From a virus, in IMG/VR virus record IMGVR_UViG_3300043122_000070, positions 1-22,388 of that record: DNA of 22,388 nt; one strand, 5' to 3'. Position numbers and translations under genes: made by a program. The notes beneath the pieces were generated by a model that worked only from the letters and a program-made list of their open reading frames with translations, searched no databases and had not been told where the DNA came from. Position 1 is the first letter of the stretch, and the number at the start of each line of letters is the position of its first letter. Below are positions 8,714-21,873 of this stretch, in pieces.

Positions 8714-8850
8714 TCTCGGACACCCTCCGTGACGGAATCTTGGAGGTCTTCCAGCTCCTCCTGAGCCTCCAGAAGCATCTTAGCAAGCTGGTAGGCGCTG
8801 TACTTCTCGGTGAGATCAACAGCATCTTCGTGGGTCTTGAAATTATTCAT
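8710..8850 (-). CDS. Small coiled-coil protein, 46 aa
   Basis: An acidic, fully helical-looking protein with heptad-like spacing of hydrophobics. The ATG at 8850 has TAAGGAG at good spacing. Both the SD and the first codons lie inside the 3' end of the HNH gene, so translation depends on sequence kept within that gene. Function is unknown. Confidence 0.68.
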   Translation of the reverse strand: MNNFKTHEDAVDLTEKYSAYQLAKMLLEAQEELEDLQDSVTEGVRE

Positions 8851-9652
8851 AAGTGTTCTCCTTAAATTGTTCCTGTTGGCTTTCTGCGAAGTCAACCCCA
8901 TGGTAAGGATGTTCTGGGTGTTTGTCAAGCATTTCTTTCAGTGTTCTTTTTGCCTCGTTAATATCCTTCGCATGTCTCCGAACCCTCTTCCCTTGAATTA
9001 TCAGCGTCACCACCCATGCGTCTCTATTTTCACGCATCGAGATGTAACGGTATCCAGAGGGCGTATTGGCTTCCAGTGTTTTGACTGGTTTTGCACGTTC
9101 CTGTCTTTTCTCCCCGTGCCCCGATGAGAACCCATGTAATTCTCGGAAAGATTTTACAGCGGAAACCGCATCCTCTTTTTCGTCAAAGTACCCTAAGTTT
9201 CTGGTGATATTTTTGTACGTTCCATGGGCGACCCATTTAGAATAATTTGGGTACCAGCTCACACCTGAAAATCCAGATGAGTTGTCTTTCCTGAGAGATG
9301 CATTGCGTGTGTTTTCCTCAAAAGTAATGATTCTTAGGTTACACCACCTGTTATCATCTCCTTGCCTGTTTATATGATCTATCACGTATCCGTGGTCTGG
9401 CCACTCCCCTTTCATATAAAACCACGCCAATTGGTGTTCCGGCACTAGTGTACCTAAAAGACCAACGCAACGTTTTAAATACCCTCCTCTGTTTTGCACA
9501 GAACCCGCCCGCTTCCCAACGCGGGCTTTTCCGGAGGGTGTGGAAGCGTCTGGGTGAGATCTCCATGTAAACACCCCAGTCTCACAACTGTATGAAAGTC
9601 GTGCTCTGACATACTCTTGGGTAACAACTTTTCGAAATTCATCTATTTTCAT
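8843..9652 (-). CDS. HNH homing endonuclease with AP2-like domains
   Basis: This is a 269-residue free-standing HNH endonuclease. Its N-terminus resembles the SYSCETGVFTWRS lead-in seen in phage HNH proteins. The HNH core runs from EHQLAWFYMKGEWPDHG through VIDHINRQGDDNRWCNLR to ENTRN (about residues 80-125). Two AP2-like DNA-binding segments follow, one at SGFSGVSWYPNYSKWVAHG and one at SGYRYISMRENRDAWVV. Such proteins cleave DNA to copy themselves into related phages. I prefer the ATG at 9652 after GAGGG. A TTG at 9679 or ATG at 9664, before and after an A10 tract, would add 9 or 4 residues. It is inserted between small early genes. Confidence 0.85.
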   Translation of the reverse strand: MKIDEFRKVVTQEYVRARLSYSCETGVFTWRSHPDASTPSGKARVGKRAGSVQNRGGYLKRCVGLLGTLVPEHQLAWFYMKGEWPDHGYVIDHINRQGDDNRWCNLRIITFEENTRNASLRKDNSSGFSGVSWYPNYSKWVAHGTYKNITRNLGYFDEKEDAVSAVKSFRELHGFSSGHGEKRQERAKPVKTLEANTPSGYRYISMRENRDAWVVTLIIQGKRVRRHAKDINEAKRTLKEMLDKHPEHPYHGVDFAESQQEQFKENTYE

Positions 9653-9679
9653 ACCATCCCTCATTTTTTTTTTAGACAA

Positions 9680-10378
9680 CTACAGGTTTTCAAAAGTTGA
9701 GATCAGAGTTTGGGGAAATCCTTTTAATCTATATCCAGCTTCTGTTAGATGGTAGTCGTAACCCAAACCTCCTATTACCTTACAAACATCCTCTACCTGA
9801 TTGTCGTCTACCCAACCTTCGAGCATCTTCTGGCCTTCCTCATCTTCTTGGACATACACCCCGTAGGTCTCAAGTATCTCCAAGTTAGCTTCCTTGACAA
9901 ACATCCCCATTATCATGCAACCGCCACGATCCTTGATATCCTCCCAAGCCACCTCAACACATTCTTGAAGGCTCCATTCCTTACTCTCTGCGTAGCGCTC
10001 CAGAGCCTCTACATAGTAACCCACCTCTTTGAGGATTTCAACAGAATTATTGTGCTTAGGATCTTGTGAGATCTCCACCATCCATTCGAGGCTGTTGAGA
10101 CACTGTCCGATGTTGCTCTTGAGGCTATCCTCTTTGGGGAGGATGTCCCGTACAGCATAACGTGCAAGGGAGGCTGTACTGCCAAGAATCCCTGCGATCA
10201 TTGAGAGGACAACGTATTGATCCCCTAATGAGTCTTTGTCATCATCTGTTAGCATCTCTTCGTACTCTTGGCGCAACTTTTTACATTGAGCACTCACACG
10301 TTTCATACGGTTCTCTTGAGTGGTTACTGTGATACCCCTCTCGTGGCCCCACTGTAGGATTGAGTTCTCTCTTTTCAT
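9680..10378 (-). CDS. MazG-like nucleotide pyrophosphohydrolase
   Basis: This 232-residue protein carries the signature of the MazG / all-alpha NTP pyrophosphohydrolase superfamily, which hydrolyses NTPs or alarmones to the monophosphate and pyrophosphate. Visible elements are ILQWGHERGIT (residues 7-17), the metal-binding QEYEEM (about 37-42) and DSLGDQYVVL (about 49-58). The late segment runs from WSLQECVEVAWEDIKDRGG to FVKEANLE. Usual phage forms are about 100-130 residues. Here an extra helical stretch of some 70 residues separates the DxxGD region from the AWEDIKDR region, and about 60 unassigned residues follow. GAGGAGGA precedes the ATG, which overlaps the upstream stop as ATGA. Confidence 0.75.
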   Translation of the reverse strand: MKRENSILQWGHERGITVTTQENRMKRVSAQCKKLRQEYEEMLTDDDKDSLGDQYVVLSMIAGILGSTASLARYAVRDILPKEDSLKSNIGQCLNSLEWMVEISQDPKHNNSVEILKEVGYYVEALERYAESKEWSLQECVEVAWEDIKDRGGCMIMGMFVKEANLEILETYGVYVQEDEEGQKMLEGWVDDNQVEDVCKVIGGLGYDYHLTEAGYRLKGFPQTLISTFENL

Positions 10379-11112
10379 ATTTCCTCCTCGTTGTTTTTCA
10401 GGTCGCTCTCGTAAGAAGTTGATTTAATCTTACCATAAAATTTAATCTCAGCATCCTCCCGCGCCTTGATTGCCTCTTCAAGGCTGTGAGTGCAAAGCAA
10501 GTGGTATTGCTCCCCTCCGTGGCTGATAACAGCTTGGTAGGTTGGATTCTCGGGATTTGAATACGATGTCTCTGTGACTCCAGTCCTCCCTGTTTTATTA
10601 CTCTTAAATCTCCGTCTATTATATGCCTGATCAGCACTACTGGACCACTTGCAATTCTCGGGAGAATAGTTCCCGTTGGAGTCTATCCTATCCAAGGAAA
10701 GTCCTGCTTCGGGTTGTCCCATATCCTCAATGAAATTCGTCACGCCAGTGTCTTTATCCAACCACCGATCACACACCCTGATACCACGGCCGCCGTAGTA
10801 CCTATAGTTTTCGTCATTTGGATTATAACACCGACGTTTCATCATTGTATAGGATTTATAGGCTCTAGTCTTTGTAAGGCCGTGCTTTCTGCACCTATCT
10901 ACCACAGTTTTTGTCAAAAGACACCCACATGACTTTGAGCCTTTGCCGATGTTACCAAAACGTAACACTTTAGTTTTTCCACACTCGCAGATCACTTCCA
11001 CTTGCCGCACCCGCTTACCTTTAGGGGAGACAACAGGTTCTACATCTCTTAGGAAGGTCAGTTGTGTTCCTTCGAACTTGTGACCTTTAGTTAATTCTAT
11101 TTTGTATTTCAC
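10375..11112 (-). CDS. HNH/AP2-type phage endonuclease-like protein
   Basis: This is a 245-residue protein of a family common in phages and usually annotated as HNH endonuclease or AP2-domain protein. It has a small Cys motif, CECGKT...SCGCL (about residues 41-65). The conserved block follows, with YGGRGIRVCDRW, then FIEDMGQPEAGLSLDRID and NGNYSPENCKW. A C-terminal GRTGV segment is AP2-like. It starts with GTG after AAGGAGG at long spacing. It is paralogous to the gene at 12235-12927. Its 3' end contains the SD of the MazG-like gene. A self-mobilising nuclease role is inferred from the family; catalysis in this sub-type is not certain. Confidence 0.8.
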   Translation of the reverse strand: MKYKIELTKGHKFEGTQLTFLRDVEPVVSPKGKRVRQVEVICECGKTKVLRFGNIGKGSKSCGCLLTKTVVDRCRKHGLTKTRAYKSYTMMKRRCYNPNDENYRYYGGRGIRVCDRWLDKDTGVTNFIEDMGQPEAGLSLDRIDSNGNYSPENCKWSSSADQAYNRRRFKSNKTGRTGVTETSYSNPENPTYQAVISHGGEQYHLLCTHSLEEAIKAREDAEIKFYGKIKSTSYESDLKNNEEEI

Positions 11113-11991: not shown

Positions 11992-12238
11992 TAGTCACTC
12001 TCCGGTATGTGCTGTAGTCACCATCTTCAATCTGCTGAAGATTCCCTAGAATATACTCGTGGAACCTGTTCGGGTGTAGCTTTGAGTGTGCCTCACAGTA
12101 TTTGTACGCAGCAGGGATTCCCAAGTGGCTGTGAAGGAACTCCATAGTGCCGTCAGGAAGCACACCGTACGCCTCTACCCTTTTGTTGTTCTGCTTGTAT
12201 CCTTCTTGGAGTTCATCGAAGAGTTCTTGTGAGATCAT
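11978..12238 (-). CDS. Hypothetical protein, 86 aa
   Basis: A soluble protein with mixed charge, no membrane segment and no recognised motif. The ATG at 12238 follows AAGGAG and overlaps the stop of the upstream HNH/AP2-type gene as ATGA. The SD therefore lies inside the endonuclease gene's last codons. Confidence 0.74.
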   Translation of the reverse strand: MISQELFDELQEGYKQNNKRVEAYGVLPDGTMEFLHSHLGIPAAYKYCEAHSKLHPNRFHEYILGNLQQIEDGDYSTYRRVTNEQR

Positions 12239-12927
12239 TTTTCGCACTCCTTTATGTGTCCATAGACTTCTATTTCTGCTTCTTCTCTGGCACGAACTGC
12301 CTCGTCGAAGTCAGATGTCGTCAACAGCACCTTTAATTTACCATCTTTGCGGATGGCTGCCCTGTACTTAACAACCCCTTTTCTACTCACCACGATGTCA
12401 ACACCCGTCCTGCCTGACTTATTCTTGGGCCTCCGACGTTTATTAAACGATTGTTCTTTCACGCCCGCCCATTTACAGTTCTCCGGTGTATAGTCTCCAT
12501 TCACATCTTTCCTCTCTAAGGACGTCCCTTCTGGTCTTGGTCCAAGATCTTCTACAAAATTGACTACACCAGTTCCCTTCTCTCGCCACCTGTCGCAGAC
12601 TTGGATGCCTCGTCCCCCGTAGAGGTAATACTCAGCACAGTCCACTTTGTAACACCGTTTCATCATAGAGCCATAACTACTGTAAGCACCTGTTTGAGAT
12701 AGCCCATGTTTTCTATGACGTGCTGAGGATAGCTCAGAAGACAAGCACCCACAAGACCTGATAGACAAGTGCCTGACAGTTGCGACCGTTTTTATGCAAG
12801 TCTTTCCGCAGTCGCACAAGAACACACATTGTCTCTTCCCCAGCTTGGTATCCTCTGCTTCTCTTACGTAGCGTAATCTAGTCCCCTCGAACCTGTGTCC
12901 CAGACTGTATTCGTAACGTTTCTTCAC
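12235..12927 (-). CDS. HNH/AP2-type protein, paralogue of 10375-11112
   Basis: A 230-residue paralogue of the protein at 10375-11112. Shared features in the same order are GHRFEGTRL near the N-terminus, CDCGKT...SCGCL, the HGLSQTGAYSSY segment, YGGRGIQVCDRW, FVEDLGPRPEGTSLERKD, NGDYTPENCKW and C-terminal GRTGV with an AP2-like tail. It also uses a GTG start, here with GAGGAGGT. The family is associated with free-standing homing nucleases. One substitution to note is SLERKD where the relative has SLDRID. Confidence 0.8.
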   Translation of the reverse strand: MKKRYEYSLGHRFEGTRLRYVREAEDTKLGKRQCVFLCDCGKTCIKTVATVRHLSIRSCGCLSSELSSARHRKHGLSQTGAYSSYGSMMKRCYKVDCAEYYLYGGRGIQVCDRWREKGTGVVNFVEDLGPRPEGTSLERKDVNGDYTPENCKWAGVKEQSFNKRRRPKNKSGRTGVDIVVSRKGVVKYRAAIRKDGKLKVLLTTSDFDEAVRAREEAEIEVYGHIKECEK

Positions 12928-16649: not shown

Positions 16650-16726
16650 GCGCCTATGGCTCAACTGGATAGAGCAAGAGTTTTCTAGTCTCTAGGTTGC
16701 AGGTTCGAATCCTGCTAGGCGCGCCA
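16650..16726 (+). tRNA. tRNA-Arg (anticodon TCT)
   Basis: A complete 77-nt cloverleaf. Acceptor GCGCCTA pairs with TAGGCGC. D stem GCTC pairs with GAGC around AACTGGATA. T stem GCAGG pairs with CCTGC around TTCGAAT. The discriminator is G and CCA is encoded. The anticodon loop TTTCTAG places TCT at 16684-16686, reading AGA codons. The lowest anticodon-stem pair (T31-T39) is mismatched. The D arm sequence is typical of tRNA-Arg. Confidence 0.88.
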
Positions 16727-16957: not shown

Positions 16958-17032
16958 GGGCCTTTAGCTCAATGGGAGAGCGGTCAGCTCATAACTGATT
17001 GGTAGTGAGATCGAAACTCACAAGGCCCACCA
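16958..17032 (+). tRNA. tRNA with CAT anticodon (Met or Ile2)
   Basis: Acceptor GGGCCTT pairs with AAGGCCC, then discriminator A and an encoded CCA. D stem is GCTC/GAGC with a short loop. Anticodon stem GTCAG/CTGAT holds the loop CTCATAA. T stem is GTGAG/CTCAC. The CAT anticodon fits elongator tRNA-Met or, if lysidinylated, tRNA-Ile for AUA codons; I cannot separate these by eye. It is not a clear initiator. The T loop is ATCGAAA, so the usual T54 is A. Confidence 0.85.
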
Positions 17033-18257: not shown

Positions 18258-19148
18258 ATGCAGAACACTAACGAGAGCTTTTGGGTTGACTGGATAGACC
18301 CAGCAGATGACACTTTGAAGTATCTAGCTGTCAGTGCTGCTTCAGGGCACTACTGGACAGATGATACACAAGATCCAAACATTGTTGACGGGTCTCTACT
18401 AGAGATCAAATACACAGAAGAAGACACCATGCAGCAGATTGGTCAGAAGTGGAAGATGCCTAACGGCGGACGCCAGTATGAACGACACAATCTCATCAAA
18501 CACCCTAACGAGCACGCTTGGATTGCTGTGATGAAGCTTCCGAGTGGTGCGCGTACAGAAGACGACAAACTGATTAGAACCTATCAAGCGTTCTGGTCAC
18601 GTAAGTTCAAAAACGTAGTATGCATCTCGAGGATTACTGGCAAGTGTCAAGGTAATCCCACCTTCCAAGATAAAGAGCTTGCAAGAGCCTCTTCAGCAAA
18701 AGCAAAGATTGCTCGTAAGAAGAAACTGGAGACTCTTGAAGCAGCTTCTAAGCGCCTCAACTTCAACCCTGCCGAGCAGCTAATCGCATGGGCACAAGGC
18801 GATGAAGAGAAGCTAAACACACGGCAACCCATTACGAACGCTCAGCGTATTAAGTGCCTTGAGATTCTGGCAGGCTACTCGTGGGCTAAACCGAAACCAG
18901 TTGACCCGATGGCGCTTGAGAAGGCTAAGCAGTCTGAGAACACAGGGCCAACAGTTCACGTTACGCTGCCTAGCAACACTCGTGAGCTATCCCAGCACGT
19001 TATCTCCCATCAGGACTCAGAGAGTCTTGACAAGTACTTCAAAGATGCGTATAAAGAACCTGACGAGGTTCAAGCTGTCAGTGAAGAAGCTGGCGAATAC
19101 GATGAAGAGGCTGGTGGGTTTACACTGCCAGATAACGGGAGGGAATAA
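18258..19148 (+). CDS. Probable terminase small subunit
   Basis: A 296-residue protein directly before the large terminase. The middle segment LNFNPAEQLIAWAQGDEE followed by NAQRIKCLEILAGYSWAKPK resembles the helical region of many phage small terminases (NPxExL...A...L.YxxPK). That region precedes a disordered acidic tail, present here from about residue 225. The N-terminal 130 residues are unlike a classic small terminase and may be an extra domain. The small subunit binds phage DNA at the packaging start site and regulates the large subunit. The call rests on gene order plus this segment. GAGGAGAG precedes the ATG. Confidence 0.6.
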   Translation: MQNTNESFWVDWIDPADDTLKYLAVSAASGHYWTDDTQDPNIVDGSLLEIKYTEEDTMQQIGQKWKMPNGGRQYERHNLIKHPNEHAWIAVMKLPSGARTEDDKLIRTYQAFWSRKFKNVVCISRITGKCQGNPTFQDKELARASSAKAKIARKKKLETLEAASKRLNFNPAEQLIAWAQGDEEKLNTRQPITNAQRIKCLEILAGYSWAKPKPVDPMALEKAKQSENTGPTVHVTLPSNTRELSQHVISHQDSESLDKYFKDAYKEPDEVQAVSEEAGEYDEEAGGFTLPDNGRE

Positions 19149-20062
19149 TGGGAAATACAGAAGCAGTCTACGAACTTTACTGGGTACGGGAGAAACACCA
19201 CACGTCTATCACCAAGGAAGGTTATGTTGGGATCACTTCAACAGGTCTCAGTAATCGCCTAAAATCCCATAAGAGTTCAGCTCTGAAGGGTGAAGGGTGG
19301 ACGTTCCAAGAGAAGATACGTGAGATTGGTCTTGAGAATATGGAGGCCAGTGTAATGTGCGTAGGCTCTTTTGAGTACATTCAAGCGTTGGAGCTGAAGC
19401 TGCGGCCCCACCCTTACATAGGTTGGAACCACGCGAAAGGCGGTGGAGGTCACACTCCAGAGTTTGCGAGAGAGCGGCAGAAGAAGGTCATGGAAGAGAT
19501 GCGCGGGACAGACGCTTGGTATGAGCGTATCGAGAAGTATAAAGAGTCCATGCAGAAGCATTGGGATGACCCAGAGTTCCACGCTAAACGCTCAAAAGCA
19601 CACAAAGAGTCTTGGGTTGGTAACGATGAACGCCGACGTGCTACGTCCGAACGAGCTAAGAAGCTGTGGGAAGACGAGGATTATAAGCAGCGTATGACTG
19701 CCCACACAAAGGCACGCTGGGAAGATCCGGTCTACCGAGAAGAGCGTGTAGCAGAGCTGAAGGATCGTTACAAAGACCCTGCCTACAGAGAGAAGCATAG
19801 TAAGTCAGCTTCGGAGGCTGCAAAGCGGAGATACGCCAACCAACCATGGTGGCATCACCCGAGCTGTAACAAGGTGTCTGCTGAAGTTGCTGACGAAGCT
19901 TATGTACTTTGGAGCACTAACAGGTGGGGCCATAAGCGAGTAGAGAAGGCACTAGGTTTGAAGCTCTACGCACTCGACTCCCTTATAAAACGGTTCCGTA
20001 AAGGGTGGGTTCCTTTAGAAGACCATGAGTGGGTTAAAGAGTTCAAAGGAGGTTCTGAATGA
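19148..20062 (+). CDS. Free-standing GIY-YIG homing endonuclease
   Basis: A 304-residue protein. The N-terminal GIY-YIG domain shows YELYWV, GYVGIT and the catalytic-region Arg in NRLKSHK. It then has ALELKLRP followed by YIGWNHAKGGGG (about residues 80-102), the usual late catalytic Glu and GWN motif. Four short repeats with the theme WxDPxY (HWDDPEF, LWEDEDY, RWEDPVY, RYKDPAY) between about residues 138 and 215 resemble NUMOD3 DNA-binding modules. A helical C-terminus follows. The start overlaps the small terminase stop (TAATG) and the end overlaps the large terminase start (ATGA). The likely role is nicking or cutting DNA of related phages near terL. Confidence 0.88.
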   Translation: MGNTEAVYELYWVREKHHTSITKEGYVGITSTGLSNRLKSHKSSALKGEGWTFQEKIREIGLENMEASVMCVGSFEYIQALELKLRPHPYIGWNHAKGGGGHTPEFARERQKKVMEEMRGTDAWYERIEKYKESMQKHWDDPEFHAKRSKAHKESWVGNDERRRATSERAKKLWEDEDYKQRMTAHTKARWEDPVYREERVAELKDRYKDPAYREKHSKSASEAAKRRYANQPWWHHPSCNKVSAEVADEAYVLWSTNRWGHKRVEKALGLKLYALDSLIKRFRKGWVPLEDHEWVKEFKGGSE

Positions 20063-21873
20063 CAGGATATACAAACCTCAAGCCGCAGGAAGGTAAGCAG
20101 GATCTTTTCATGCGCAGCGAGGCCGATATTTGCTTGTACGGCGGCGGTGCTAGGTAACTGGCCGCTTCAGCAGCAATGCTGGAGAGAGTATTGGGTGAAT
20201 TGCTGGAAAGCTAAGTCTTCGGATATGCCAATCAGCAGCCAAGCCTGTTAAGCGTAACAGGAAGGTTCAGAGACTACTGGGTTCAACACGATCTTGTTGA
20301 GTAATACCAGACTAGCGCCCAACATCCTTATGGGATGATGATATAGTCCATGCCCGCCGAAAGGTGGGATAAAATGGGTTCTGGGAAGACATTCGCTCTT
20401 CTCATGGAATGCCTCCGCCATCTAAATGTTCCAAATTTCTACACGTTGTTCCTTCGACGTACCAAAGCAGAGATTAAACTTCCGGGCGGCCCTGTCGATG
20501 AATCAAGGAATATGTTCCCTCAGTTTGGAGGAGAATACTTTGAGTCGTCTATGAAGTGGGCCTTCCCGTCAGGCTCTAAAGTCCAGTTTGCAGGTATCGA
20601 ATTAGATAAAGACCTTGAGAACTTCAAGGGTTCACAGGTTCCGTTAACCGATCAGCGGCTCTAATCAGCAATGGTTAGATGATAACCGGATGAATTCAGG
20701 GGAAGCCTTCGGGTAATCCTGAGCCAAGCCTATTAAGCGTAGTAGGAAGGTGCAGAGACTAGGTGGTGTGACACGATCTTGTCACGTAATACACCAATAG
20801 CGTCCGGCATCCTAATAGGATGATGATATAGTCCACAAGTGATCATATTCGATGAAGCAACAGGCTTTACTGAGCGTATGTTCTGGTATCTTCTTTCACG
20901 TAACCGTTCCAGTACAGGAGTAAAATCTTATGTTCGTGCGACCTGCAACCCGGTAAGCGAAGGGTGGGTGCGTAAGCTAGTAGACTGGTGGATTGACGAT
21001 GACGGGTATCCAATAGAAGAACGTTGTGGTGTCCTTCGTTGGTTTGTCCGCCGAGGTGAAGACACACACTGGTACGACTCAAAAGAAGAGGCTGAGAGGA
21101 TATGGGGCGAAGACGCCATGCCGAAATCATTTTGCTTCATAAATGCAACCGTAAGGGACAACAAGTTAATAGACCCATCATACGAAGCTAACTTGAAAGC
21201 CCTATCTCGTATTGAGCGAGAGGCTCTCTATCTTGGTAACTGGAACGTAAAAGCTAACGCGGGTAGTTACTTCCAGAGTGACTGGTGTGAGTTTGTTGAT
21301 CGTAAAGATGTCCCCAAGGCTAAGTCGGAGATGAGGGCATTTGATACGGCCTCAACAATCCCTTCGGAGGTGAATCCTGATCCTGATTATACAGCCTGTG
21401 TCAAGATACGTCTCGCAGAGGACGGATACTACTATATCATGCACGCAGACCGCGATAGGTTACGACCAGATGGCGTTAAGAAGATGATGCGTAAGTACGC
21501 AGAGCTTGACGGTAGATCCTGTACAGTCGGCATCCCACTAGATGCTGGGGGCGCTGGTAAAGCTGTCTTCGAGGATCATGCGAAGAACCTAGCAGGGTTT
21601 GTCTACAAGAAGTGTAAGACTAACAAGTCTAAGCTGGATCGCTTCCTTCCTTTCTCATCTGCTGCTGAAGCGGGTCTCATCAAGATCGTTAAAGGTGATT
21701 GGAACGACACTTTTATAAGTGAACTAGAGAACTTTGTAGGTGACGGTAAAGGACACGACGATCAAGTGGACGCTTGTGCGGACAGTTTTAACAACCTCGC
21801 AACAACAAAACCCCTCCCCAGTAGCCTCTCATGGAATCCCTCACTAGGCTCCCAGTCAAACGTCTGGGAATAA
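20059..21873 (+). CDS. terL: Terminase large subunit, split by two group I introns
   Basis: The ATP-driven DNA packaging motor and headful nuclease. The proposed spliced CDS joins 20059-20148, 20377-20644 and 20840-21873 and gives 463 residues with no internal stop. Walker A is GGGGSGKT (residues 28-35), restored by joining exons 1 and 2. Walker B is LIIFDE (120-125), whose Leu codon is split T/TG across intron 2. Coupling motif TCNP is at 154-157. The C-terminal RNase H-like nuclease keeps D288 (AFDTAS), D354 (PLDAGG) and D426/D427/D430 (GHDDQVDA). AAAGGAGG precedes the ATG, which overlaps the endonuclease stop. Without splicing, exon 1 ends at TAA soon after the P-loop, so no working motor would be made. 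Splice sites are deduced from RNA pairing and protein alignment, not from RNA data. Confidence 0.9.
20149..20376 (+). ncRNA. Group IA intron 1 in terL
   Basis: A 228-nt ORF-less self-splicing-type intron. P1 pairs exon GCGGT (20144-20148) with GCCGC, giving the U-G pair at the 5' splice site. P2 is CAGCA-GCAA-TGCTG. The core matches the canonical elements: AATTGCTGGAAA (P), AATCAGCAGCCAAGC (Q), GTTCAGAGACTA (R) and GATATAGTCC (S). P6 is CCTGTT/AACAGG. P7.1 is a long stem (CTGG/CCAG with TCAAC/GTTGA). P3 pairs TTGGG with CCCAA. P8 is CATCC/GGATG. P9 is CCCGCC-GAAA-GGTGGG. The last base is G (20376). P10 pairs AACT with exon 2 GGTT. P7.1 between P7 and P3 places it in subgroup IA. Confidence 0.9.
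20645..20839 (+). ncRNA. Group IA intron 2 in terL
   Basis: A 195-nt ORF-less intron related to intron 1. P1 pairs exon CCGT (20641-20644) with GCGG, with U-G at the splice site. P10 pairs intron GATCA with exon 3 TGATC perfectly, fixing both splice sites. P2 is CTAATCA-GCAA-TGGTTAG. P3 pairs CCGGA with TCCGG. P4 pairs TCAGG with CCTGA. P6 is CCTATT/AGTAGG. P7 uses AGAGACTA with TATAGTCC. P7.1 has GGTG/CACC and GTGAC/GTCAC. P8 is CATCC/GGATG. The 3' end is G (20839). It lacks the P9 hairpin present in intron 1 and is close to the minimum size for this intron class. Confidence 0.9.

Follow-up and report, generated by a model that had tools for sequence, protein, structure and literature searches.

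Group I introns have been described in general as selfish, nearly neutral elements lodged at positions from which imprecise removal would be fatal to the gene (PMC2814812). Several phages carry them in terL, their terminase gene. In the Vibrio cholerae phage ICP1, splicing of terL, which has a homing endonuclease gene (HEG) as its neighbor, was shown by RNA-seq and RT-PCR (PMC10448857). The terL gene of Bacillus phage Moonbeam contains two group I introns (PMC4299906), and some terL genes of the Bastillevirinae contain two or three (PMC11878797). Introns without an ORF of their own can be mobilized by free-standing HEGs, a process called collaborative homing; the psbA intron of cyanophages and T7-like phages are the cases of it cited in PMC10448857, where it is also discussed for ICP1.

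Here we describe a phage contig, an entire IMG/VR virus record, 22,388 bases long (the window), in which terL is broken at both of its nucleotide-binding motifs. An earlier sequence-only reading had attributed the breaks to two group I introns, and had further proposed that the double interruption is unusual and that splicing may gate late packaging. We discuss below how these proposals fare against covariance-model searches, related loci and cultured phages.

The split terL gene and its two introns

The right end of the window is a packaging module that consists of a gene in the small-terminase position, a GIY-YIG nuclease gene, the three-frame terL (20059-21873) and a portal gene (Table 1). 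The direction of the genes switches at about 14.8-15.8 kb, being leftward below about 14.8 kb and rightward above about 15.8 kb, and two tRNA genes are present (Arg-TCT, 16650-16726; Met-CAT, 16958-17032). The phage is nuclease-rich: besides the GIY-YIG gene, there are three free-standing HNH endonuclease genes on the minus strand (8843-9679, 10375-11112 and 12235-12927; phrog_99, phrog_374), in the leftward gene block.

Table 1. Features of the packaging module of the window.
Feature	Positions	Strand	Description
Gene in small-terminase position	18258-19148		Conserved in relatives; no family match
GIY-YIG-type homing endonuclease gene (predicted)	19148-20062	+	304 aa, free-standing; PHROG match and I-TevI-like fold of the model
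terL exon 1	20059-20151	+	31 codons, ends ...YGGGA; N-terminus same in L003 and L009
Group I intron 1	20152-20376	+	225 nt, no own ORF; inside Walker A (YGGGA^GSGKT), phase 0; RF00028 93.2 bits
terL exon 2	20377-20644	+	268 nt; phrog_979, PF03237
Group I intron 2	20645-20839	+	195 nt, no ORF; within the Leu codon ahead of IIFDE (Walker B), phase 1; RF00028 68.7 bits
terL exon 3	20840-21873	+	Rest of ATPase and RNase H-like nuclease domain; phrog_979 (E 5e-117), PF17289 (E 1e-25)
Portal gene	Right-end packaging module		phrog_113

RF00028, the Rfam model of group I introns, matches both intervening segments over its full length (intron 1 at 20142-20369, E 4e-23; intron 2 at 20632-20856, E 9e-16), the gathering score of the model being 50, and both segments contain the conserved P3-P7 catalytic core. 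A U stands ahead of each 5' splice site (U20151 and U20644), and the last intron bases are G20376 and G20839. In intron 2, CCGU pairs with GCGG in P1, which includes the U-G pair, and UGAUC pairs with GAUCA in P10; the insertion separates the first base from the other two in the Leu codon directly before IIFDE, and the junction restores QVPLIIFDE. An extra P7.1/P7.2 insert suggests that both introns are IA-like. The flanking exons match phrog_979 (E 9e-25 and 5e-117), and a Shine-Dalgarno sequence, AGGAGG, lies ahead of exon 1 at about 20047-20052.

We put at about 0.9 the probability that terL contains two group I introns and that both are removed by splicing in this phage. Of the sequence-only reading, the three frames, the terminal G of each intron, the location in both nucleotide-binding motifs and the exact limits of intron 2 are all borne out by the model matches and by the relatives, with a correction of one codon in intron 1. 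That the frame breaks instead reflect pseudogenisation or an assembly error has a negligible chance, since two full-length ribozyme matches are accompanied by correct splice-site pairing and by insertions at the identical nucleotides in independent contigs.

The correction concerns the 5' end of intron 1. Its 3' end had been read correctly at 20376; its start, read at 20149, belongs at 20152. When the cut is made after U20151, the spliced protein reads YGGGAGSGKT, as do the uninterrupted proteins of two relatives (L003 and L009) and the spliced proteins of three others (L004, L006 and L008); the earlier junction gives YGGGGSGKT. With the Ala codon kept, the protein has 464 residues, not 463. 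In the alignment with L003 and L009 (76% identity) the exons join as proposed, and the only gap at a junction is this Ala, which the earlier start had deleted and the corrected site restores. A cut after U20151 also brings a P10 helix, GGUU/AACU, next to the U-G pair of P1. In the homologous intron of L006-L008, five P1 and six P10 pairs form at the equivalent register (bounds GGGGCT^...^GGTAGT), and the P10 bases have changed between these loci and the window while their pairing is kept. On the strength of the Ala in the homologues and of the P10 register, we reject a 5' site after 20148. It was chosen earlier because a longer, competing P1 can be drawn at U20148 (GCGGU/GCCGC), which has no adjoining P10. 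The P1 at 20151 is weak, with three pairs and two more on the loop side, and in view of the longer competitor efficient splicing at 20151 is not certain. An isoform lacking the Ala, arising through the competing P1, is possible but unsupported.

In the mechanism that we propose, each intron would fold after transcription, cut by means of guanosine after U20151 or U20644 and join its exons, which would yield the 464-residue TerL with Walker A and Walker B intact. Unspliced RNA encodes a 32-residue peptide, and joining of exon 1 to exon 3 places a stop directly after exon 1; unspliced or exon-2-skipped RNA would give only short, inactive products.

Intron content, sites and kinship among close relatives

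Seven relatives, with 72-82% identity in the C-terminal part of TerL, were compared. The terL genes of L003 and L009 are uninterrupted, with QVPLIIFDE intact. Those of L006, L007 and L008 have the Walker A intron only, with the site and boundaries of intron 1 of the window. In L004 a Walker B intron occupies exactly the nucleotide position of intron 2, and a different group I intron lies in Walker A, 6 nt upstream of site 1 of the window. L005, which is cut off at its start, is without intron 2, and the site of that intron is likewise empty in L003, L006, L007, L008 and L009. The base preceding site 1 is U in the intron-bearing loci (the window and L006-L008) and C in L003 and L009, as would be expected if P1 needs the U, although the numbers are small. 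Among the wider set of TerL relatives in IMG/VR, 80 loci are uninterrupted and no Walker-motif introns beyond those of L004 and L006-L008 were found (a few loci end at a contig end). Introns are the minority state in this set.

This presence/absence polymorphism implies that phages of this group can do without the introns, which argues against a regulatory role such as the gate proposed earlier. In a role of this kind, splicing would respond to timing or to the energy state and hold back active terminase until late. In its favor, both introns must leave before the ATPase can form, and for other phages introns have been hypothesized to be 'molecular on-switches', with the transcripts of some of their genes maturing later in infection (PMC11878797). 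During infection by SIOphi, in whose terminase exon 2 skipping has been seen, all terL transcripts observed were spliced, however, and we see no sign of regulation in the window. Taken together with the intronless terL of L003 and L009, these observations make a gate quite improbable.

The two introns of the window resemble each other over the core (62% in a trimmed alignment), and the AU test does not reject a common clade (p = 0.105), which would be consistent with the derivation of one from the other by transposition within terL. Each has a nearer match, however, in a relative's intron at its own site (72% and 78%), and FastTree groups intron 2 with introns of vibriophages (CNP site) and of a Klebsiella phage (a tRNA region; support 0.98). 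We hold transposition within terL to be unlikely. FastTree and IQ-TREE disagree on the deep branches of the intron tree. An unannotated intron closely related to intron 2 (69% in the trimmed alignment) is found among clustered tRNA genes of the jumbo Klebsiella phage Muenster (L214 1398-1646), where it possibly splits a tRNA gene.

Mobile introns were also expected, in the earlier reading, to favor conserved residues. Site 1 agrees with this, lying at the 98.7th percentile of local conservation, and site 2, at the 64th, does not; the probability that both fall in such conserved positions under random placement is 0.04, a weak enrichment.

The upstream nuclease gene and intron spread

The stop codon of the nuclease gene overlaps the start codon of terL (ATGA). 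The protein has a weak sequence match to PHROG homing endonuclease families (E 1e-6) and no GIY-YIG match in Pfam. In a structure model that is confident only for about residues 5-90, residues 7-102 resemble the catalytic domain of I-TevI (VIA Z 9.7, rmsd 2.7, 85 aligned), and the best Foldseek matches are 1mk0/1ln0 (E 0.03); by this model, the nuclease has a GIY-YIG (I-TevI) fold. A single-sequence search of IMG/VR returned no close relatives of the protein, and a search with a two-sequence alignment returned only the contig of L009 and weak partial matches.

We envisage that the introns are retained as selfish, nearly neutral insertions at positions where their imprecise loss would destroy an essential ATPase. 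They would spread most likely by recombination following DNA cleavage by an endonuclease encoded in trans, which is plausibly the product of the GIY-YIG gene that ends on the terL start codon. We give collaborative homing by this nuclease, with the terL introns as its beneficiaries and their sites as its target, about an even chance. A GIY-YIG-superfamily gene in the slot at the terL start fits such homing, or else a nuclease that targets the locus by itself. It is possible, with a somewhat lower chance, that the nuclease is unrelated to the introns and homes on a terS-terL site of its own, with the introns owing their movement to some other nuclease or to earlier recombination. In L009 a diverged homologue of the nuclease (31% identical) sits in the same place, next to a terL without introns, and in the Vibrio phages eugene and RYC a GIY-YIG-superfamily or endonuclease-family gene in that slot likewise precedes an uninterrupted terL; conversely, introns but no nuclease homologue at that place are seen in L004 and L006-L008. 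Against this dissociation stands the recurrence of a GIY-YIG-superfamily or endonuclease-family gene directly before a split terL in ICP1, VnaP, 1.187, qdvp001, 11895-B1 and PH357. The distribution of nuclease and introns in the relatives of the window does not decide on homing.

Insertion points in Walker A and comparison with known systems

A search with the region as query found similar introns in cultured phages. Three group I introns interrupt terL in Vibrio phage 1.193, and the first of these is in Walker A; the terL genes of VnaP and 1.187 also have three each, and that of 11895-B1 has two. In Vibrio phage qdvp001 (KT932418), whose terL is annotated as three CDSs, one group I intron lies in Walker A and one in Walker B. 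The terL of PH357 is split one codon before GSGK/GGGK in Walker A, as is that of ICP1, and RF00028 has no match at its gathering score in the PH357 split. Nor does RF00028 report, at that score, the ICP1 intron (L229 14400-14660, minus strand), the splicing of which is proven, indicating that the model misses some real phage introns. We placed the ICP1 intron in Walker A, at GGA^AGGGKS, by our own reading of the sequence. On a literal reading of the P1/P10 pairing and the frame, the last base of the Walker A intron in 1.193 (L215 783-1052) and in qdvp001 (L224 2240-2500) appears to be A, not G.

The insertion points in Walker A occupy three places within four codons. One, YG^GGAGSGKT, is used in L004; another, one codon before GSGK/GGGK, in ICP1, 1.193, 1.187, qdvp001 and PH357; and a third, directly before GSGK, in the window, L006-L008, VnaP and 11895-B1. 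These positions suggest that the Walker A motif of TerL may be a recurrent hotspot, entered by group I introns of at least two lineages at no fewer than three points within four codons, and that the nuclease targeting it may be encoded by the free-standing gene of GIY-YIG type that keeps a fixed place at the start of terL. We hold this reading to be evenly balanced, and found no statement of it in the literature searched. The apparent repeated invasion of Walker A is the most interesting residue of the present finding. The locus is also another case of phage packaging genes that are split by introns and that annotation reports as separate 'terminase' genes. Together with its relatives it forms a compact comparison set, with none, one or two introns and with or without the nuclease among loci 72-82% identical in the C-terminal part of TerL, which would allow direct tests of how introns are gained and their sites chosen at a motif of an essential ATPase, and of collaborative homing there.

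The interruption of both motifs, earlier called unusual, is real, but it is not unique: L004 and qdvp001 are also doubly interrupted, Moonbeam and some Bastillevirinae have multiple terL introns, and the arrangement is already known from other sequenced phages. Of these, qdvp001 resembles the window in having introns in both motifs (the Walker B one at VLVD^E) and an endonuclease-family ORF upstream, although its Walker A site is one codon upstream, its Walker B site a few codons downstream and its intron sequences are different. The terL genes of Moonbeam and some Bastillevirinae are similarly split by two or three group I introns, some of which have been demonstrated to splice in vitro or in vivo, but their introns are longer and most have homing endonuclease genes of their own. 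ICP1 shares with the window an intron in Walker A and a GIY-YIG-superfamily gene directly upstream that overlaps the terL start, but has one intron only, inserted one codon further upstream, and its nuclease, a T5orf172 HEG, has a T5orf172/CapR architecture, in contrast to the N-terminal GIY-YIG domain predicted for that of the window. As in the collaborative homing of the psbA and T7-like phage introns, the window combines ORF-less introns with a nearby free-standing nuclease gene, and the two would constitute a putative pair of this kind.
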